Shown: positions 1,895 to 61,600 of the stretch, piece by piece
How positions within the stretch are numbered: position 1 is the stretch's first letter
How the letters are laid out: every line of letters starts with the position of its first letter
Source of the DNA: Branchiostoma floridae
Lineage: Eukaryota; Chordata; Leptocardii; Amphioxiformes; Branchiostomatidae
Length of the DNA: 64,000 bases
Assembly (NCBI RefSeq): GCF_000003815.2
Contig: NC_049991.1
Location: forward strand, 19,489,041-19,553,040
Direction of reading: 5' to 3'
Notes under the pieces: generated by a model
Seen by the model: only the letters and a program-made list of their open reading frames with translations
Database searches by the model: none
What the model was told of the DNA's origin: nothing
Position numbers and translations under genes: made by a program

Positions 1895-2062
1895 CCTATC
1901 TGAGGGACGGCCCTAATAACCAAAGCTACTCATTTTCACCTGAGTGAAGCAAGGAAAGTTGTGTTAAGTGCCTTTCCCAAGAGCACAACATCAGGACAAA
2001 TCCGCAGTTTCGAACCTGTTACCTCTGGGGTCCGATTGCACCACATGATGCCACGCACAACG
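1895..2062 (-). mobile_element. tRNA-derived SINE, minus strand
   Basis: Read on the minus strand, the sequence has an A-box-like TGGTGCAATCGG (near 2030-2045), a B-box-like GGTTCGAAACTGC (near 2004-2016), and then the core CTTGGGAAAGGCACTTAACAC-like segment (near 1965-1985) and a CACTCAGGTGAAAATGAG segment. The same order is seen at 28266-28595 and 55150-55310, so this is one dispersed family. The tail is truncated and no target duplication was found. It is a retroposed Pol III-type element, not a functional tRNA. Confidence 0.7.
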
Positions 2063-7930: not shown

Positions 7931-9385
7931 TTGCTTTGGTGGAGTCAACAGCAGTTAGGGACAGAGATACAAAAACAAAAAGCTGTTAACGTATTATTCT
8001 GTAGAGTAAAACAAAATACTGACTGAAAACTAGCTGGAAGTGAAAAGGCAAAATAATGCTGGAGAATGTCAACAGCATTTAGAAATTTGGCACTAGGAAC
8101 AGCAATACAAAAACAACATGCTGATAGCTTCTTGTCCTTCAGTATAAGATATTGGCTGAAAATAGCTCATATGAAAAGGCAAAATAACAATGGAGGAAGT
8201 CAACAGCAGTCAGAAAATCAGCACCATGGACAGTAATACTAAGATAAAATGTTGAAAGCTTATTGTCCTTTTAGTTTTGCTTTTTGTCCTTTAGTGTAGT
8301 GTCTTTGGTATAGATTTTGGCAAAATTTGGCTCAGTAAATGGTCACATCATTGATTTGGGGGAGTCAACAGCAGTTAGGGACGGCAATACAGAAACAAAA
8401 TAATGCTGATAACATCTTAATGCTAGTTCACCTTTATCCGTTGGGTAACCTTTATTCGTTCTTTTTAAGAACAATCTATCTAGGGATATCAAGTCGACGG
8501 ATGGTGGTTTCAAAGTATGATATTTTTAGTATAGTACAATTTGAGATTACCGTCCATTGAATTAATATCCCTGGATACCCTGTTTATAAACACAGCGAAT
8601 ATAGGTTGCCCCACGGATAAAGATGAATTAACGCTATACTATAGTGCAAAATATTGACTAAAAATTTGCTTGAAGTAAGAAGGCAAAATATTTCTGATAA
8701 AAGTCAACAACAGTTAGAAATTCAGCAATACAGAAACAAAATGCTGATAGTCCTGTAGTATAAAATATTGGCTGAAAACTAATTTGAAGTTAAAAGGGAA
8801 GACATGTCTTGAGGAAGTCAACAGCAGTCAGAAATTTAGTACCAGGGACAGTAATACTGACATAAAATGTTGAAAGCTTCTTGTCCTTTACTGTTGCTTC
8901 TTGTACTTTAGCATATTGTTTTTTGGTATACATTTTTGCTTGACTTGGCTCAGTAGAGGAGTGAAGAGCAGTTAGAAATTCAGCACTAGGAAATAGTCCT
9001 TTAGTATGAAATATTGACTGAAAACTAGCTTTATGTAAAAAGGCACATCATTGCTTTGGTGAGTCAACAGCAGTTAGACATTCAGAACCAGGCACAGAAA
9101 TAATATAAGGAAACAAAATGCTGATAGCTTCTTGTCCTATTGAATAGAATGTCGACTGAAAACTAGCTTGAAGTCAAAAGATGAAAATTTCTGTAAGAAG
9201 TCAACAGCAGTTAGAAATTTAGCACCAGGGACAGTAACAAAGAAATAAAATCCTGATAGTTTCTTATCCTATTGTATAAAATATTGATTGAAAACTAGCT
9301 TGAAGTGAAAAGGCAAAATATTGCTGGAAAAGTCAAGTATTCAGCACCAGGGACAGCTGTAATAAAGTGAAATGTTGATGCTTTA
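7930..9385. repeat. Degenerate tandem array, ~110-165 bp units
   Basis: About ten diverged units carry GTCAACAGCAGTTAG, CAGCACCAGGGACAG, ACAAAATGCTGATAG, TTCTTGTCCTTTAGTAT and GACTGAAAACTAGCTTGAAGTGAAAAGGC. Anchors lie near 7945, 8068, 8200, 8363, 8702, 8817, 8955, 9063, 9200 and 9332. The large 8363-8702 gap is explained by the MITE at 8422-8634. The short frames inside are by-products of the repeat. Confidence 0.75.
8422..8634. mobile_element. Palindromic MITE, family 2 (copy 2)
   Basis: The ends GCTAGTTCACCTTTATCCG and CGGATAAAGATGAATTAACGC are mirrored, with the internal inverted pair GGATGGTGGTTTCAAA / TTTGAGATTACCGTCC. It interrupts a unit of the 7930-9385 array, so it inserted after the array formed. 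Confidence 0.75.
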
Positions 9386-10959: not shown

Positions 10960-12115
10960 CACTTGTTTTGTGCCTCTAAATTCTTTGATAAAGACAAACT
11001 CCAAGCCATTTCATTTCCAAGGACACGCACATTAGATCAAATGGCTGAATGTTTGCAACAATTTTGTTTCATTAGCAGCTATGGCCTTCCAAGTTTCCAC
11101 AATTGTAATTGCCCAATCTTCTTCCTTATCCAGTGTGTCCAGTACAAGTGTGAATGATCAAGACGAATTTCAGTACAAAGTCAGATGATTAAGACAAAAC
11201 GAACTATTCTGCCACCAAGGACACACAGATCAGATGGCTAAATGTTTGCAGCCATCTTGTTCAATAAACAGCAATGGTCTCATCTCCAGAAGCAAATTTA
11301 TTTCAGTGCAGATGCAGATTGGTTATAACAGACTGAAAACTATAAGGCCATGTTGGTTTGATTTTCTGGATGACATCCGCACATGCATGTTTTTTCACTT
11401 TTAAATCAAGTGCACATGCAGTTCTTTTCAGTACAGTGCAAATGATAAGATAGAATACTATTATACCACCAAGTACATAAACACCAAATGGCTAAATGCT
11501 TCCAATCATTTTTTTGGATTGACAGCAATGGTTTTTTAATCTTGAATCAATTGTACATTTCACTTCAATGCAGATGACTGGGATAGAATGAAAGCTATTA
11601 CACCACCAAGGCCAACTGTTTTCGTTCAAATGGCTAAATGTTTGCAACCATTTTGTCGTATTGACAGTAATGGTTTTTCACTCTTGAAGCAGTCGTACAA
11701 TGTCCTTTTTTTCACTACAATGCAGATGATGAGAATAGAAGAGGGGAAACTATTCTACAACCCAAGACAGATAGACCAGACCAAATAGCTAAATGTTTGC
11801 AATCGTTTTGTTAGGTCAAGAGGTTTTTATGGTTTTTGATTCTTGAAGCAATCATACTCATGCTTCTCTTCACTACAATGCAGATGATTGAGATAGAATG
11901 AAAGCTATCACGCCACCAAGGCCAACAGCATCCGATCAAATGTCTAAATGTTTGCAGCCATTTTGTTAGAGTGGGCTTTTTTTCCACTGCAATACAGATA
12001 CAGTACAATACACTTGATTGAAATAGAATGAAAGCTATCACGCCACCAAAGCCAACTGCATCCCATCAAATGGCTATTAAATGTTTGCAGCCATTTTTGT
12101 ACAATCCCATGCAAA
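10960..12115. repeat. Degenerate tandem array, ~130-250 bp units
   Basis: At least seven units carry CAAATGGCTAAATGTTTGCA followed by CCATTTTGTT, a cagcaatggttttt segment and AGATAGAATGAAAGCTAT-ACGCCACCAAGGCCAA. Anchors lie near 11038, 11231, 11486, 11627, 11785, 11937 and 12066. A related fragment sits at about 10485. Non-coding. Confidence 0.7.
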
Positions 12116-12784: not shown

Positions 12785-13235
12785 CAATCAATAGCTGTAC
12801 CCAATTTAGCCAAACACACTGTATCTCTTCAGGCTTTTAAAGAAAACGTCTTAAATCGTAATCTGAAAAAGTCTTTGGGAAGATTCTTTGATATTATCAA
12901 AAATTAACAAAAACGAAGATGCTATGCCAAAACGTAAATTTGAAAAATCTAAAACAATCTCCTGCATCCATATAGCTGTACCAAATTTAGCCACACATCT
13001 CGAGTCTTTTAAGGAAAATTTCCTTAATCATAATTTTAAAAAGTCTTTGAGAAGATTCTTCGAATTTGTATTATCCAAAATTAACAAAAACGAAGTCTAT
13101 GCTATATCGAAACGTGAATTTGAAAAATTCTAAATAAACTGCTGCATCCATAGCTGTACCAAATTTAGCCAAACACACTTTACATGTATCTCTCGAGGCT
13201 TTTTAAGAAAATTTCCTTAAGCAAACAATTGCATT
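12785..13235. repeat. Tandem repeat, ~180 bp, about 2.4 copies
   Basis: ATAGCTGTACCAAATTTAGCC recurs at about 12790, 12969 and 13150. It is followed by CTTTTAAAGAAAA, CTTAAATCGTAAT, AAAGTCTTTGGGAAGATTCTT and AAAATTAACAAAAACGAAG. The 81-aa frame here is a translation of the repeat. Confidence 0.75.
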
Positions 13236-20310: not shown

Positions 20311-20497
20311 GTCAGCCATTTTGACATGACGGTCCCAGTGGCTGAAGCCCTTATCAGGCAACAAATTATTTTGGTTCTCAACAATTTTCAGAGTAAAAAT
20401 TAAAGGAGCTTAAGGGACCAAAATAAAAATAAAAAGCTGGGAGGAGGAAAATTGAGAAGTTAATTAGGTTCAATCTTTACAACTTTGTGTACCATGT

Positions 20498-21625
20498 AAA
20501 AGGCACAAAAATCAGTCATCGATTACTTCCTACCAGTTCCTAGAAAATCTGACAGGTGAAGACTGAGAGGATTTTGTGAGAGACAGCGGTGCTCTGGAAC
20601 AGTGTCACCTTTATGACTGTGGCCATCCAAAATTCTCACCTTTGTCTAGTACAGTAAGAAATCTTCTGTGAAAGGTACAAAAATCAGTCATCGATTACTT
20701 CTTACCAGTTCCTAGAAAACGTGTGAAGACTGAGAGGATATTGTGAGAGACAGCGGCGCTCTGGAACACCTTTATGACTGTGGCCATCCAAAATTCTCAC
20801 TTTTGTCTAGCTGCATCTACTACCAGTATTAGCGATATTCTGTAAAAGGTACAAAAATCAGTCATCGATCACTTCCTACCAGTTCCTGGAAAACGTGTGA
20901 AGACTGAGAGGATATTGTGAGAGACAGCGGCGCTCTGAAACACCTTTATGACTGTGGCCATCCAAAATTCTCACTTTTGTCTAGCTGCATCTACTACCAG
21001 TAAGCGATATTCTGTAAAAGGTACAAAAATCAGTCATCGATTACTTCCTACCAGTTCCTGGAAAACGTGTGAAGACTGAGAGGATATTGTGAGAGACAGC
21101 GGCGCTCTGAAACACCTTTATGACTGTGGCCATCCAAAATTCTCACTTTTGTCTAGCTGCATCTACTACCAGTAAGCGATATTCTGTAAAAGGTACAAAA
21201 ATCAGTCATCGATTACTTCCTACCAGTTCCTGGAAAACGTGTGAAGACTGAGAGGATATTGTGAGAGACAGCGGCGCTCTGAAACACCTTTATGACTGTG
21301 GCCATCCAAAATTCTCACTTTTGTCTAGCTGCATCTACTACCAGTAAGCGATATTCTGTAAAAGGTACAAAAATCAGTCATCGATTACTTCCTACCAGTT
21401 CCTGGAAAACGTGTGAAGACTGAGAGGATATTGTGAGAGACAGCGGCGCTCTGAAACACCTTTATGACTGTGGCCATCCAAAATTCTCACTTTTGTCTAG
21501 CTGCATCTACTACCAGTAAGCGATATTCTGTAAAAGGTACAAAAATCAGTCATCGATTACTTCCTACCAGTTCCTGGAAAACGTGTGAAGACTGAGAGGA
21601 TATTGTGAGAGACAGCGGCGCTCTG
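20498..21625. repeat. Homogeneous 172-bp satellite, ~6.5 copies
   Basis: The unit AAAGGTACAAAAATCAGTCATCGAT... starts at about 20500, 20671, 20845, 21017, 21189, 21361 and 21533. The last intervals are exactly 172 bp, and units 3-7 appear almost identical. The first two units are more diverged (a CTTCTGTG variant and an extra AGTGTC). Each unit holds CAGCGGCGCTCTG. This is a young, locally homogenised array; the 172-bp length is near a nucleosome repeat. Confidence 0.9.
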
Positions 21626-24245: not shown

Positions 24246-24601
24246 AAACCAATGATTGTGTAAACCAACTTGAAGTCAGTTTTTTTCAGTCCTGCTTACT
24301 TTGAATCATGTCTGCAAACTTAGGAATTGTATTGGTATGGTGTGGCTGTATATTATACAGTCATAAGACGATGATGGAATTACCAATAGAATTTTTATCA
24401 AAACCTTATTTCTACACACTCCATGGAGAAAATCACAGGGACCATAACATATCATACGGACTTTATCAGACATGTTTATTAGGAGAGTGAGTGAGTGATG
24501 GCACATTCGTGTCTGGTGCTGGTGTTATCGACAGTCATACTGATACAACGGTGGCAAGCTGCTCAGGAGGATTGCCCACAGACATTATCACTTTCACGCA
24601 G

Positions 24602-25638
24602 CCATTCCATCCTCACCTTGCAGTGTCAGTTTGAAGAACGACATGCTCTGATGCTCGACAGGTCCTATCAATACAATATAGTATTAGTGTAGGTCGCATG
24701 GCGCAATCGGCAGGGTGTTCGATTCACAACCCACAGGTTCTGGGTTCGAAACTGTTGATGTGAAATTCTGTTCTCACCTTGCAGTGTCAGTTTGAAGAAC
24801 GACATGCTCTGATGCTTGACAGGTCCTATCAATACAATAGTATTAGTGGAGATCGTATGGCACAGTCGGCAAGGTGTTCAATTCACAACCCAGAAGTTCT
24901 GGGTTCGAATCCGTTGATGTGGCATTCTGTTCTCACCTTTCAGTCAGTTTAAGGAATGACATGCTCTGATGCTTGACAGGTCCTATCAATACAATAGTAT
25001 TAGTGGAGATCGTATGGCACAGTCGGCAAGGTGTTCAATTCACAACCCAGAGGTTCTGGGTTCGAATCCGTTGATGCGATATTCCGTTCTCACCTTCCAG
25101 TCAGTTTGAGGAACGACATGCTCTGTTACTTGACAGGTCCTATCAATACAATAGTGTTAGTGGAGGTCGTGTGGCGCAATCGGCAGGGTGTTCGATTCAC
25201 AACCCAGAGGTTCTGGGTTCGAATCCGTTGATGTGACATTCTGTTCTCACCTTTCAGTCAGTTTGAGGAATGACATGCTCTGATGCTTGACAGGTCCTAT
25301 CAATACAATAGTATTAGTGGAGATCGTATGGCACAGTCGGCAAGGTGTTCAATTCACAACGTAACCCAGAAGTTCTGGGTTTGAATCTGTTGATGTGACA
25401 TTCCGTCCTCACCTTTCAGTGTCAGTTTGAAGAACGGCATGCTCTGATGCTTGACAGGTCCTATCAATACAATAGTATTAGTGGAGATCGTATGGCACAG
25501 TCGGCAAGGTGTTCAATTCACAACCAGAAGTTCTGGGTTCGAATCTGTTGATGTGACATTCCGTCCTCACCTTCCAGTCAGTTTGAAGAATGACATGCTC
25601 TGATGCTTGACAGGTCCTATCAATACAATATAGTATTA
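24602..25638 (+). repeat. Tandem array of tRNA-like SINE heads, left part
   Basis: After a truncated first unit, six units of about 157-164 bp start at 24691, 24850, 25007, 25164, 25321 and 25485. Each has an A-box-like TGGCGCAATCGG or TGGCACAGTCGG and a B-box-like GGTTCGAATCC, followed by TTCTCACCTT-CAGTCAGTTTGA, GACATGCTCTGATGCTTGACAGG and CAATACAATAGTATTA. Two unit types alternate as A-B-B-A-B-B. The array is interrupted at 25639 by a transposon. Confidence 0.9.
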
Positions 25639-27784
25639 CCTCTGTGAAAATTCAAGCGTCTCAGACGGCGAAACGCCGTTTGCGACAACCGTCCAAGGCG
25701 TCTTAAATTATTGGGACGCTTTGGACGGTTACGGCGGCGGACGGCATGGGACGGGCTTTTGAACGCCCGACGAAACGTCCAAGACGGTCCGAACGGCATA
25801 ACAAACGCTTGGACGCGTCTAGATTGGCACTTTAGACGCGTCCGGTCGGACGTTCGGGACGTCCGAGACGGCGTCTGAAAGCGGGCAGCCGGACGCTCCC
25901 GCGCTCCGTCGGGCGGGCCCCCCGCTGGGAACAGACGTCTCTGCGGACGGACCAGACGCCGATTGCGACGGGCGTAAATGACGTAATCCAGGCTGCTGGG
26001 ACGGATCGGACGCCGGTTGCGACGGGCATAAACGGCGTAATCCAGGCCGCTGGTACGGGCGGTAGCCTCCACCACGCCTTCCCACGGGGGGTACAGATCG
26101 TAAAATTCGACAGAAAATGGAATGAAAGGCCAAGAGGCTGTCATCGCTATATTATTAAAGGTTAATATCTGGGCCAAACTCCTAGCAAAATATTTTTTCT
26201 TCAAGACACAGTTTTAGTTAGTCAGGCAGTACGGTAGAAACTCATAACGGGCCGGTGCATTTAATTTGGAACGTGCGTAGACGGCTGCCCGGACGCCGTT
26301 TCTGACGCCGTCCGGTCACGGCTATAATTTTATGGCCTGTTGGGACAAGCGTTGCCACATACCAAACAAACAAATATTCAGCCAGGCAGTGAATTGTAGA
26401 AGACCACCCACCACCGGGCCGTCAGGTTTAGCTAAAATCAAACACAACTTGAACAAATTTCTTCGTAAATTGTTTACACGTACTCCGCGGCGTTTAATCA
26501 ACTTTGCTACATGTACGAAATTCAATCCGGCCTTCAATCGTGTCCGCGGCTTTTTGTGCCGCCGTGCCGACACGTTACATCAGAATGGACGAGCCCACAT
26601 AACATCAAGGGTAAATACAGGACGTTTGAAATTTTCTATAGTAAATTTTAATTGCACCAGTATTTGCTAAAGACTGGATATATAAATGTGAAATAACGTT
26701 AAATTTTCTACAAAGATCATAAGTCATTTTTTTTATTTCGAGGTAGCGAAATAAAGTCTTCCGTTTCATAAGTTCCTAACCTCAAGTAGTTGGAAGAGCC
26801 GACTAAGATTTTGATTGGCACCGGCAAAATCGGTAGGTGCTATCTCATTATCTGTTGTCTAAATCTACATTTTAACAGCATTATCATTCTTAATAGAAAC
26901 AACAGATATTTTTACAAGTATTCTACAACGTGTTCATAATTCTTTTTATTTTGTGGCATCAAAACAAGATCCTAAATTTTATCATTTCTTCGCGTATGTG
27001 GGGAGGGCACCCGTAACAACAAGTCGTCGGTAAACTTTGCAACAGATGATTGTACAAAAAATTAGAATAAAATGCGAAGTATTCACTTACCGGCGCCTGC
27101 AAAGTATCGACAATCAGCTAACGGAAGAACCGCTGCTTCTTTTGACGTCTGTCACATCTGTGATTTCTGCTGTCCAAGGTTTGCTGCTTCGAGTAAGTAG
27201 TATAATTTTTCCCCCTTGTCGGCGCACGACAAATAATTTTTGTACATTCTTTTTAGTATAAATAACGGATACAGTCATCGCCGTAAACCCAACCTCAGCA
27301 CAATGTCGTACAAACATCAGCTGCTACGTCTAGACGTGAAGTCCTTGGTCCAAAAGTGCGCAAAATTTAACAAACGGACATGAAATCCACAGAAATAGTC
27401 ACCTTCTGAACATAAGTCCTGCAACCGCCGGAGTGTTCAACGGTCTGAAATTCGAATTCACCCGCTGAAATTGGCGCATGTGCAGAAGTTAAAACGTCAT
27501 GTTTCCCGTGGGGATCATAAGAAAAGACGCAGCCGTCTGCCGGCGTCGGGTGACTAAGTATTTTATAGCCCCATCAGTGGCCGTCTCCGACGGCAATGGA
27601 AGGTCTTTCAGCCGTTCGGGCGTTCACCATAAAAACTGACAGAACGGCACGGACGCTCACGATGTGTCCGCGGCCGTTTCGGACGGCAATGAACGCGTCC
27701 AGAACGTCTGAAACGCGCGCGGACGCCATTGGACGCTTGTAGACGCCGTCCGGGCAGTTTCGGACGCTTGAATTTTCACAGAGG
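25639..27784. mobile_element. 2146-bp DNA transposon, TA target site
   Basis: The ends are a perfect 22-bp inverted repeat beginning CCTCTGTGAAAATTCAAGCG. The flanking array sequence shows that TA (25637-25638 and 27785-27786) was duplicated on insertion. The outer about 450 bp on the left and 290 bp on the right are extremely CpG-rich, with dozens of GGACG/CGTCC motifs in both orientations. AGACGGCTGC recurs inverted at about 26279 and 27525. TATA-like CTATAAAATA faces inward from the right end (27559-27568, minus strand). Internal frames (112, 74 and 83 aa) show no transposase motif, so it looks non-autonomous. A TA duplication suits Tc1/mariner-like or ISL2EU-like elements. Confidence 0.85.
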
Positions 27785-27786
27785 TA

Positions 27787-28265
27787 GTGTAGGTCGCGTG
27801 GCGCAATTGGCAAGGTGTTCAATTCACAACCCAGAAGTTCTGGGTTCGAATCTGTTGATGTGACATTCCGTTCTCACCTTCCAGTCAGTTTGAAGAACAA
27901 CATGCTCTGCTGCCTGACAGGTCCTATCAATACAATATAGTATTAGTGTAGGTCGCGTGGCGCAATCGGCAGGGTGTTCGATTCACAACTCAGAGGTTCT
28001 GGGTTCGAATCCGTCAATGTGACATTCCGTCCTCACCTTTCAGTCAGTTTGAGGAATGACACTTTCTGCTGCTTGACGGGTCCTATCAGTACAATATAGT
28101 ATTGGTGGATGTTGCGTGGCACAATCGGCATGGTGTTCGGTTCACAACTCAGAGGTTCAGGGTTCGAATCTTTTGATGTGACATTCTGTTCTCACCTTCC
28201 AGTCAGTTTGAAGAATGACATTTTCTATTACTTGACAGGTCCTATCAATACAATAGTATTAGTGT
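27787..28265 (+). repeat. Tandem array of tRNA-like SINE heads, right part
   Basis: Three more units (27791, 27950, 28109; 157-159 bp) continue the array after the transposon in the same phase. They are closer to type A of the left part. The unit at 28109 is more diverged (ATGTTGCGTGGCACAATCGG). The array passes directly into the full SINE at 28266. Confidence 0.85.
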
Positions 28266-28595
28266 AGGTCGTGTGGCGCAATCGGCAGGGTGTTCGATTC
28301 ACAACCCACAGGTTCTGGGTTCGAATCCGTTGATGGGCCACTGATCTTGTGCCCTTGGGAAAGGCACTTTACTCGTCTTTCATCACTTCACTCAGGTAAA
28401 ATTGAGTACCAGAGGAGCCACATGTAAAAGAACCCACCGCACTGATCAAAAAGAGAAGGGGTCCTTCCCAGTGTGAATGGATCAGATAAATCTGTCTGGG
28501 TATACAGCTTGTACAGTTCAGTTATAACCTGTTGTGTTACACCTTAAGATAGTTTACCAGGTATGCAATACAAACAAAACAAAAAAAAAAGTTCC
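28266..28595 (+). mobile_element. Full-length tRNA-derived SINE
   Basis: It starts with the same tRNA-like head as the array (A box TGGCGCAATCGG, B box GGTTCGAATCC). It then departs at about 28336 into CACTGATCTTGTGCCCTTGGGAAAGGC, CACTCAGGTAAAATTGAGTACC, AGAGGAGCC and a body ending in an A-rich tail (28570-28592). Related copies lie at 1895-2062 (minus) and 55150-55310. It is the only unit in the array with the body and tail. Confidence 0.8.
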
Positions 28596-29053: not shown

Positions 29054-29500
29054 TGCACTTGGCAGTCTGAGCTTGACCCAAGCAGTTTGCTCAGCAGTGG
29101 CAGAAAAATGTCTGGTGAAATGTCTAGAAATGTTTGATTTGCATTCTTGCAGCTGGAACAAAGGCAAAATTGAAGATACTACTTTACTAAGTTTCTGATG
29201 TTTCATTTATGGTTTGCATGCTGAATTGTACATGTGTTGATTGCTTGCACTTGGCAGTCTGCGCTTGACCCAAGCAGTTTGCTCAGCAGTGGCAGAAAAA
29301 TGTCTGGTGAAATGTTTGATTTGCATTCTTGTAGCTGGAACAAAGGCAAAATTGAAGATACTACTTTTACTTAGTTTCTGATGTTTTATTTTATGGTTTG
29401 CATGCTGAATTGTACATGTGTTGATTGCTTGCACTTGGCAGTCTGCGCTTGATCTAAGTAGTTTGCTCACCTACAGTGCCAGAAAAATGTCTGCTGTTTG
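29054..29500 (+). repeat. Tandem repeat, ~185-192 bp, 2.4 copies
   Basis: TTGCACTTGGCAGTCTG-GCTTGACCCAAGCAGTTTGCTCA begins at about 29053, 29245 and 29429. The intervening ATTTGCATTCTTG-AGCTGGAACAAAGGCAAAATTGAAG is nearly identical between copies. The minus-strand 73- and 87-aa frames are repeat translations. Confidence 0.85.
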
Positions 29501-39790: not shown

Positions 39791-40055
39791 CCCGGGAGCC
39801 CATCGAGGCCGGGTGAGAGATTACACCGACCGCCAAATTGCTGGTCATCCACTTCCACAGCCTCCAAACAATTTGTGGAATAGTCTTGGAGGAGGTCGCT
39901 TCTCGCGCCCGGCGGCTGTCAATCACCTCGTTGCCCAGGGCGACGTCCTGCGGGGCCGTCCTAACGGCGGCGTCAGACGGCGATATCCATAACGGGAATC
40001 GCCTGGATATCTCGTAACATCTCCGTCATTATCCATATCATCAGGGCAGTCGATT
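39791..40055. promoter_or_regulatory. Candidate regulatory block with PBX/PREP site
   Basis: GC- and CpG-rich unique sequence between two arrays. CTGTCAATCA (39916-39925) is the exact complement of TGATTGACAG, the decameric site bound by PBX with PREP/MEIS TALE partners. No credible coding frame. An enhancer or promoter role is inferred. Confidence 0.35.
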
Positions 40056-41065
40056 GTGTCTGTGGAGGGTGATGGGGTGGGATGGGACCTGGGCTGTGAC
40101 AAGATCGGGATAAGGGCAGCATATTGGGATGGAGTCCAAGGGTTTTGGAGAAGACAGGGGCCCTGGGTGATGGTGTGCACGGGGTCTGTGGGTGATGGCA
40201 TTGGGTGCATGGGTTGTAATGTGGGGTTTATTGGTTTAAGAGAAGGGGTACATGGGTTATAGGACGGGGTCCATGGGATTAAGTGTATGTGGGGTATGTT
40301 TATGAGATGTATTTAGACAAAACAAATGGGATTCCAAGAGTTTTGGAGAAGACAGGGGGCCCGGGTGATGGCGTGGGGTATGTGGGTGATGGCATGGGTG
40401 CATGGGTTATAGGTGGAGTTCCATGGGTTGTGATGTGGATGGGGTGGGAAATGCTGTGACAAGATCGGGATAAGGGGAGCATATTGGGATGGAGTCCAAG
40501 GGTTTTGGAGAAGACAGGGGCCCTGGGTGATGGTGTGGGGCCCTGGGTGATGGCATGGGGTGCATGGGTTATAGGTGGAGTTCCATGGGTTGTAATACGG
40601 ATGGGGTGGGATGGGACCCAAACTGTGACAAGATCGGGATATGCCCGGGAGCATATTGGGATGGGTATGGATGAGGCAGGGGCCCTGGGTGGTGGCGTGG
40701 GGTCTGTGGGTCATGAGATGTACAGGTGTACAGGTTGTGATGTGGATTGTGTGGGTTCTGAGAAGAAATGCGGGGTTATACATTGTTTGTTGGATGTCCA
40801 TGTCATTGTGGCAAGATCGGGATAAGGGGACCATATTGGGATGGAGTCTAAGGGTTTTGGATGAGGCAGGGGCCCTGGGTGATGGTGTGGGGTATGTGGG
40901 TGATTGCATGGGGTGCATGGGTTATAGGTGGAGTTCAATGGGTTGTGATGTGGATGGGGTGGGATGGGACCCGCACTGTGACAAGATCGGGATAAGGGGA
41001 GCATATTGGGATGGACTTTAAGGGTTTTGGATGAGGCAGGGGCCCTGGGTGATAGTGCAGAATTA
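40056..41065 (+). repeat. G-rich tandem array, ~170-180 bp, about six units
   Basis: Units contain GACAAGATCGGGATAAGGGGAGC, ATATTGGGATGGAGTC, AAGGGTTTTGGAGAAGACAGG, GGCCCTGGGTGATGG and GGATGGGGTGGGATGGGACC. Anchors lie near 40101, 40461, 40630, 40812 and 40982, with a diverged unit near 40320. The minus strand is Pro/His-rich in translation (201- and 124-aa frames), which is compositional. The G strand has many G-runs. Confidence 0.85.
40074..40093 (+). other. Canonical G-quadruplex motif
   Basis: GGGGTGGGATGGGACCTGGG has four G-runs of three or more with loops of 1, 2 and 4 nt. Related three-run versions recur in each following unit of the array. Confidence 0.7.
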
Positions 41066-45400: not shown

Positions 45401-46670
45401 CATTAGCAGGTAATGCATAATTGATGCTTGTACACAGGAGGAGCGCACCTGATTGCCCCATTTGTCTTACTGTTGTTTGTTTATGCACCATATAAGGGAA
45501 AGGCAGTACTGTAGCAAAGGTGATGTAGGTGTGACATAATTCTGCCATATACCAGAAGACTGCCACATTGAGAGAATGATGTAAAATGTTATGATTTTTT
45601 TTATTATGGACCAGAAAAAGAAGGGGTTATATAAATTAGGTACTAAGTAGGTACAAATGTATCAATCTCTCTTTTTTTCCCTTTAATAATCTTTAGCTTT
45701 TGCTAAAGTGATGCAACAAGTACATAAAAGCAAATATTAAAAAAATACCTGCCATTGCCTCAGGCTCTTTTGATGTCCTCTAGCTGATCTTCTACATAAA
45801 GAAAATATGTCTGGAACCAAGAAACTATACTGAATGTGGCCTGACCTGACCTCAATAATACTGGCTGTCATTCTATACTGCCTCCCAGCCACCCCAAAAG
45901 CACCTCACTTAGTCACTAAGCCACGATTAGATTAACCCAAAAACAAGTAGTATCAGAGGATTTCCAACTAACGAAGACAATATCTGTCTAAGTGTGTATG
46001 AAACCAGATGCCCTCAGGGTTATTTTGGGACAAGTCAACTTCTAATTCCACTTTCCCAGCTCTGCTTATTTCCAATGATTAACAAACACCTCTAGGGTTA
46101 AGCCTAATGTATATTAAGCCCATCCCAATCAAACCTAATTCATGGCACATACACTGTAATAGTGTGAGGTGTTTCTAAAGAATTCATTGAACCTATAAAT
46201 CATAGTAATAATGTTATACTTCTTGGAGGGAAAACACTTTTTTGTTGGCAATGTGTGTTTGACTTTCTTCTTCTGTCATGAAACAAGCACTCAGATTTAT
46301 AGAACTGCATGGGCTGTTACAGCAAATATGAACAACTACAATAACTGTAGTTTTGCGATCATGGCAAAATCTGTATTTGCTTAATATCATAGGTTTGCAT
46401 TAGCACTTTATTGGTTTCATTGAAGGTTACTGGGAGGGAAACATCCTGCATTTTCTCCAAATATTGCTGTTCCTGTTGAAAGGCAAGTTAATCTCTGCAA
46501 CTGGATAAAATTCACCATCACTAGAATGAACTGCCAGGCAGAGCAAAAATGATAATCTAACATCTCTCTGAAAAAAAAACAGTTGAAGGTATCAAAGTCA
46601 CTAACTTGTAAGGATTGTAATGCAAATGTCACACATATGTAGGTCATGTTTGGATGGTTCCTAGAGTGAG
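45400..46670. other. A+T-rich DNA, nothing firm
   Basis: A MITE-end-like GAACCAAGAAAC...TGTGGCC fragment lies at about 45812-45842. Otherwise nothing was recognised. Confidence 0.45.
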
Positions 46671-46674
46671 GTGA

Positions 46675-46790
46675 GGAAAGTTGTTTTATTCCTCAGGGTA
46701 CAAAGTTCTTAGCATGACAGGATTCGATCCCAAGACCTATGGGACTTAGCCAAACTGTATACCGTTATCCCACATAACCCCTCACAAGGA
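46675..46790 (-). mobile_element. Degraded tRNA-like SINE head, minus strand
   Basis: On the minus strand, TTTGGCTAAGTCC (A-box-like) is followed by GGGATCGAATCCTGTCATGC (B-box-like, near 46720-46738). The body is missing. Confidence 0.5.
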
Positions 46791-55149: not shown

Positions 55150-55310
55150 GTGGGTTTTTGTGGTGCAATCGGCAAGGTATTTAACTCAAGAGGTTCTGGG
55201 TTCAAATCCGTTGATATACTACCGATCTTGTGTCCTTGGGAAAGGCGCTTAACACAGATTTTCTCACTTCACTCAGGTCAAAATGTGTACCTTGCTTTGG
55301 TTAGGAGAAA
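55150..55310 (+). mobile_element. tRNA-derived SINE
   Basis: TGGTGCAATCGGCAAGG (A box), GGTTCAAATCCGTTGAT (B box), GATCTTGTGTCCTTGGGAAAGGCGCTTAACAC and CACTTCACTCAGGTCAAAATG follow in the same order as in 28266-28595. The tail is missing. Confidence 0.75.
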
Positions 55311-61275: not shown

Positions 61276-61600
61276 CCAGGTGCGGCCAAGGTACTGTAGT
61301 GTTATGGAGGGTGTTTGTCCAAGAATCATCAGGTCCTGGGCTCAAATCCTGTCATGCCACTGCTCTTATGTCCTTTGGAAAACAGTCAAACTGGGTGAAA
61401 TGGGTATCTGACTTTGATTGTTTATATGTGCAATGAATTGTATTGTATAATATGATATGTTTAATGATGTTATTGATTTATGCTAATTGACTGATCAATG
61501 TTATATGTATAATTTAAATGTATTTTAATATCTAGAGGACTCCAGGAAGAATAGTTCGATGTAACTAATGGAGATTCCTAATAAACAAACAAACAAACAT
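61276..61600 (+). mobile_element. Degraded SINE with CAAA tail
   Basis: A B-box-like GGCTCAAATCCTGTCATGCC (61340-61359), a weakened ATGTCCTTTGGAAAACAGTC core, and an AATAAACAAACAAACAAAC tail (61579-61598) suggest an old tRNA-derived SINE. The A box is unclear. Confidence 0.45.

Follow-up and report, generated by a model that had tools for sequence, protein, structure and literature searches.

A tandem array of SINE heads and flanking DNA in Branchiostoma floridae, probably grown locally from a single DNA-level duplication

How does one locus come to hold ten tRNA-like heads of a short interspersed element (SINE), set head to tail, when only the last of them is followed by the body and the A-rich tail of the element? 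The array in question lies in a 64,000-nucleotide stretch of the Branchiostoma floridae genome (C13:19489041-19553040; this whole stretch is the window, and positions below are counted within it), where it begins at about 24601-24603 and where the tail of the terminal SINE ends at 28590. Our answer, to which we give a probability of about 0.85, is that one DNA-level duplication took in the head together with the DNA flanking the SINE on its 5′ side and was expanded locally, the array being neither a dispersed satellite nor a multi-headed SINE.

Tandem Repeats Finder (TRF) reports two stretches of one repeat, at 24603-25630 (157 bp, 6.5 copies) and 27785-28335 (159 bp, 3.5 copies), and blastn with the last head as query finds ten copies of the head, at 24687, 24846, 25003, 25160, 25317, 25481, 27787, 27946, 28105 and 28262. 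An earlier account made from the letters of this DNA, here called the sequence-only reading, had described ten head-to-tail units of about 158 bp; the ten heads and the unit length (about 157-159 bp) hold, but the array is not continuous, being split within unit 7 by an inverted-repeat element of 2146 bp (25639-27784). That reading was right to confine the body and the A-rich tail to the last unit, as only the last head runs into them. With unit 7 joined across the inserted element before alignment, the ten units in register are 82.8-96.8% identical in pairs, and units 2, 3, 5 and 6 form the only subgroup that stood out in a search for higher-order repeats. Each unit is built from a SINE part of about 74 bp (AGTG to GATG), a few junction bases and a non-SINE spacer of 82-84 bp. 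An array “made of SINE heads”, as first described, thus misses about half of each unit.

We searched the genome (513,431,437 bases in 431 contigs) with a procedure that passes over very common words. The spacer as query gave ten matches, all inside the array (2 of 2 candidates scored), and the left flank (24300-24625) matched only itself. Querying with one whole unit gave 49 matches (40 of 315 candidates scored), of which 11 are in the array and the remaining 38 are limited to the head region. All 38 of these dispersed places were fetched and tallied with blastn at E values up to 0.01, counting heads of at least 35 bp. Each holds exactly one head, 36 of the 38 hold body sequence, and none holds the spacer. 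The first 20 of these places, aligned with the SINE of the array, put the 5′ end of the SINE at AGTG, directly after the spacer. By this comparison of sequences, the spacer is best read as the terminal SINE's own 5′ flank. The family itself has the make-up of a tRNA-derived SINE, with a 5′ tRNA-like head carrying A and B boxes and with dispersed copies that have a body and a simple A-rich tail.

Patterns built from the promoter boxes gave a similar picture. Two heads whose B and A boxes are 71-131 bases apart occur four times in the genome, always in the array, and neither the reverse strand nor a backward control gave a match; the pattern recovers 4 of the 9 junctions of the array, so that its sensitivity is partial and other spacings or altered boxes fall outside its reach. 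A stricter two-head pattern matched once, again in the array. Single heads with exact A and B boxes number 25 in the genome, five of them in the array and the other 20 at least about 76 kb from one another. Viral contigs scanned for the spacer and the SINE core gave no match, and neither did a plasmid search. Classical satellites form long arrays with many loci or copies; here there are ten units, and the unit, the spacer and the two-head pattern matched this locus only, which does not fit the label “satellite” that the array had been given. The sequence-only reading had named two findings that would overturn it, a unit long established elsewhere as a satellite with no link to the SINE and single SINE copies with several heads. 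Neither appeared within the reach of the searches, which returned the whole unit from this locus only; the fetched places were single-headed without exception.

Some of the dispersed places deserve mention in their own right. The two without detectable body, L009 (497-572) and L045 (503-573, minus strand), lose similarity just beyond the border of head and body, near the unit break of the array. L016 carries an extra head fragment of 27 bp on the opposite strand, under the 35-bp limit. L037 and L038, two SINE copies on the same contig with about 14 kb between them, agree in match length and identity and may belong to a larger duplication.

The nine junctions between units have the consensus AATCTGTTGATGTGACATTCCGTTC. 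Set against a hybrid of SINE and left flank, in which the crossover point was left free within a shared GCCA, this consensus has 4 mismatches in 25 positions (5 when the terminal copy replaces the dispersed SINE consensus), compared to 9 against the SINE alone and 13 against the flank alone. GCCA stands at both edges today, on the plus strand: at 24601-24604, in single-copy flank at the left edge of the array, and at 28337-28340, where it closes the tRNA-like part and marks the right edge of the duplicated segment. The units also carry recombined variants. Twenty two-state sites form 190 pairs, in 122 of which all four combinations occur (the four-gamete test), and incompatibility grows with distance, from 18 of 42 pairs at 20 columns or less to 57 of 73 pairs beyond 60 columns, a contrast that none of 2000 position shuffles reached. 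Such shuffling of variants among units is the mark that unequal exchange or gene conversion would leave. Together, the locus-only spacer, the flank-to-head junction and the recombined variants support the earlier proposal that unequal exchange or slippage in the DNA, and not retroposition, amplified the array.

We infer the following order of events. A tRNA-derived SINE would have retroposed into single-copy DNA. A tandem duplication at the DNA level would then have joined the end of the head to a point in the flank about 84 bp upstream, probably by way of the shared GCCA, and the resulting direct repeat of flank and head would have grown to at least ten units by unequal exchange, slippage or gene conversion, with its variants reshuffled along the way. 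Finally, a TA-flanked inverted-repeat element would have inserted into one of the units. The body and the tail would have been kept only in the copy at the 3′ edge because both lay outside the duplicated segment, and the heads would have been passive passengers in this process.

Several points weigh against this account. At the second position of the presumed GCCA most units carry A in place of C, which leaves the microhomology step presumptive; moreover, breakpoint pairs drawn at random from the window have at least four bases in common in 1.9% of cases. Around the terminal SINE there is no convincing target-site duplication, and the insertion site is not proved. The locus was read in one assembled allele, which carries the array. 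The sequence searches of the genome covered the unit, the spacer and the left flank, and the search with the unit rests on the 40 scored of its 315 candidates.

The terminal SINE (28261-28590, plus strand) comprises the head, a body from which about 65 bp are absent relative to the dispersed consensus, and the A-rich tail, and differs from that consensus by 33 mismatches over 314 aligned positions. Two candidates for a target-site duplication were put aside. An exact CAATACAA is present in both spacer and tail, and was not used because the similar ATGCAAnACAAACAAA is the family's own tail in dispersed copies; GTTCCTAGAACTATAA after the tail and GGTCCTATCAATACAA in the spacer share a loose likeness only, seen by eye and given no weight. 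We also dropped divergence as a clock, since the places behind the consensus had been chosen by similarity to a query holding the head of unit 4; the mismatches of the heads to it, 0 of 73 in unit 4 and 2 of 73 in unit 10, carry the bias of that choice. Blastn finds two further copies in the window, one with a single head and the start of the body (55155-55300, plus strand) and one with a single head that bears a deletion and the start of the body (1915-2062, minus strand). Weak and probably older pieces of the family lie at 61289-61381 (plus strand, 69% identity, E 1e-8) and 46664-46743 (minus strand, 64%, E 0.002).

Are the heads of the array still intact as promoters? The sequence-only reading had placed an A box and a B box in every unit. 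The A-box pattern TRGCNNARYNGG is indeed exact in all ten heads, with two further occurrences in the rest of the window; the strict B box GGTTCGANTCC, in contrast, is exact in five. By chance, 64 kb would hold about 2.9 A boxes and 0.05 B boxes when both strands are counted (from 20 first-order simulations). The offset from A to B box is 44 in eight heads, and 43 and 49 in the remaining two. All units lie on the plus strand, their limits being drawn from TRF, blastn and alignment. Unit 1 (24603-24760), made of spacer and head, has two changes in its B box, units 2 (24761-24919), 3 (24920-25076) and 4 (25077-25233) have both boxes exact, and unit 5 (25234-25395) has two changes in the B box and a 5-bp insertion in the head. 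One change is found in the B box of unit 6 (25396-25553), of unit 7 and of unit 9 (28020-28178), the most diverged of the ten. Unit 7 is made up of a spacer half (25554-25638, placed by alignment) with TA at its end and a head half (27785-27860) that follows a second TA (27785-27786). Both boxes are exact in unit 8 (27861-28019) and in unit 10 (28179-28335), the latter formed by a spacer and the head of the terminal SINE.

ARAGORN and Rfam at default settings report no tRNA in the window, and Rfam at E up to 10 gives no tRNA match in the array region or in the consensus head. At a threshold of 80%, which 12 of 1000 dinucleotide shuffles also pass, ARAGORN accepts the consensus head; at 90 and 95% it rejects it. 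At 50%, where 156 of 1000 shuffles also pass, the head is fitted as tRNA-Val(CAC) with a 3′ strand that reaches GCCACC, and the unit break therefore coincides with the end of the tRNA-like part. Three microRNA matches in the array region (Rfam, E up to 10), two of them inside the inserted element, were far below gathering scores and are taken as chance.

Given these boxes, selection might have maintained the array for its many RNA polymerase III (Pol III) and TFIIIC sites, either as start sites or as a chromatin boundary, the two roles that the sequence-only reading had proposed. The A boxes exact throughout, the five intact B boxes and the presence here of 5 of the genome's 25 heads with exact A and B boxes would agree with this, and the lack of TTTT in 24603-25756 would on paper allow a read-through RNA over several heads. 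Yet the B box is altered in five of the ten heads, and the box columns vary like the rest (permutation P 0.48): the mean pairwise difference is 0.098 in the 23 box columns, 0.119 in the 52 other columns of the head and 0.092 in the 82 columns of the spacer. Because the boxes are no better conserved than their surroundings, we see no sign of a selected Pol III function, and the proposed role is left unsupported. It seems to us very unlikely, on present sequence evidence, that this one locus would have been captured as a Pol III/TFIIIC site cluster, to serve as a chromatin border or to yield multi-headed Pol III RNA, and the same low probability attaches to its maintenance by selection.

The other explanations concern the origin of the array. 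A tRNA-like satellite or tandem tRNA-type array could have come first, with the SINE taking its head from it or inserting into it. This would suit the tRNA-like units (as judged by ARAGORN at 80%) and a unit length near 160 bp, which is common among satellites (PMC10702118). The unit and the spacer, however, were found at this locus only, the bases are those of the SINE up to the junction and those of the flank beyond it, and in 36 of the 38 dispersed places the head stands as a single copy before a SINE body, all of which makes a satellite-first origin highly improbable. Dimeric SINEs such as Alu do exist (PMC10702118), and a ten-headed copy of a multi-headed family could have been retroposed here whole; the single heads of the fetched dispersed copies, a spacer seen nowhere else and the want of a two-head match elsewhere at spacings of 71-131 bases leave this with a minimal likelihood. 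Truncation during retroposition normally takes the 5′ end of an element and not the 3′ end, contrary to what is needed if SINEs had inserted one after another at the same site and each had been cut down to its head. Independent insertions would also be expected to leave independent junctions, and here the junction and the spacer between all heads are the same; hence, although repeated insertion at one site has been suggested as a way in which tandem SINEs may arise (PMC10702118), we hold this to be the least probable of the origins considered. The units differ from one another by 3-17%, carry private indels and include one split by an inserted element, and a false tandem duplication made during assembly is accordingly hard to credit. 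Mis-assembly is common in tandem arrays, and the true copy number could still differ from the assembled ten. We therefore return to a single local duplication of flank and head as our reading of the locus.

The element within the array, which the sequence-only reading had missed, lies in the spacer of unit 7 (25639-27784) and has inverted ends, CCTCTGTGAAAATTCAAGCGTC, and is bordered on either side by TA. When the halves of unit 7 are put together across it, they align as one unit. The element is G+C-rich near its ends, and neither of its two long open frames matches a Pfam entry. TRF lists six more tandem arrays in the window, their periods ranging from 132 to 184 bp, at 8997-9336, 11559-11969, 12834-13175, 20495-21625 (6.6 copies, 95% matches), 29127-29493 and 40356-41015. 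None has a blastn match to the unit, head, spacer or body, and tandem growth in this region is therefore not special to SINEs. A G-over-C skew of 0.575 at 40001-41000 lies over a G-rich tandem repeat with periods of 16-21 bp and 162 bp. Pfam applied to ten frames of the window gave two matches, both far below the curated cut-off.

How does the array compare with known systems? Several tandem families of amphibians contain Pol III promoters: PolIII/TAN of a newt, OAX/satellite 1 of Xenopus, Rana/polIII and Hy/polIII, for which a link to SINEs was judged inconclusive (PMC10702118). Hydromantes Hy/Pol III and Xenopus satellite 1 have also been tabulated as derived from tRNA-related regions (PMC9659126). 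Our array is like them in being a tandem repeat that holds a tRNA-like Pol III promoter, and differs from those amplified families in having its parent SINE at its end and in occupying a single locus. In amphioxus, BflSINE1 has been described as a tRNA-derived DeuSINE (PMC3747384); the terminal SINE is likewise tRNA-derived, a likeness that refers to description and not to sequence. Among the papers listed in a literature search, with subscription papers outside its scope, none deals with SINE-derived tandem arrays of lancelets.

The closest parallel is with the SINE-derived tandem repeats of squamates (sSats), most of which have one longer terminal unit that reaches the end of the SINE (Vassetzky et al. 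2023, PMC10702118). Of these, sSat3Ppi2 matches the tRNA portion, and sSat3Gja2, with a length of about 150 nt, joins the 5′ part of Squam3 to some 30 nt of unknown origin; the authors of that paper call the restriction of such repeats to squamates uncertain. Like the sSats, our array has units taken from one part of a tRNA-derived SINE and shared with dispersed copies, and a longer terminal unit that runs to the A-rich tail at the SINE terminus; its ten heads compare with tallies that begin at 4-5 monomers (PMC10702118). Unlike them, it was found at one locus only, with ten units, and probably lies outside the Squam1, Squam2 and Squam3 families, and its extra part makes up over half of the unit and can be traced to the 5′ flank of the SINE. 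The array opens no new kind of system and is mostly ordinary. The architecture described in squamates is now seen in another genome, where the extra part of the unit has a likely source, and the locus shows, cleanly and at an early stage, a tandem repeat seeded by a mobile element, in which the parent SINE, the captured flank, the junction and the recombined units stand side by side. This raises the possibility that the added nucleotides in some SINE satellites of squamates, described as of unknown origin, are likewise the SINE's own flank, captured in the first duplication.

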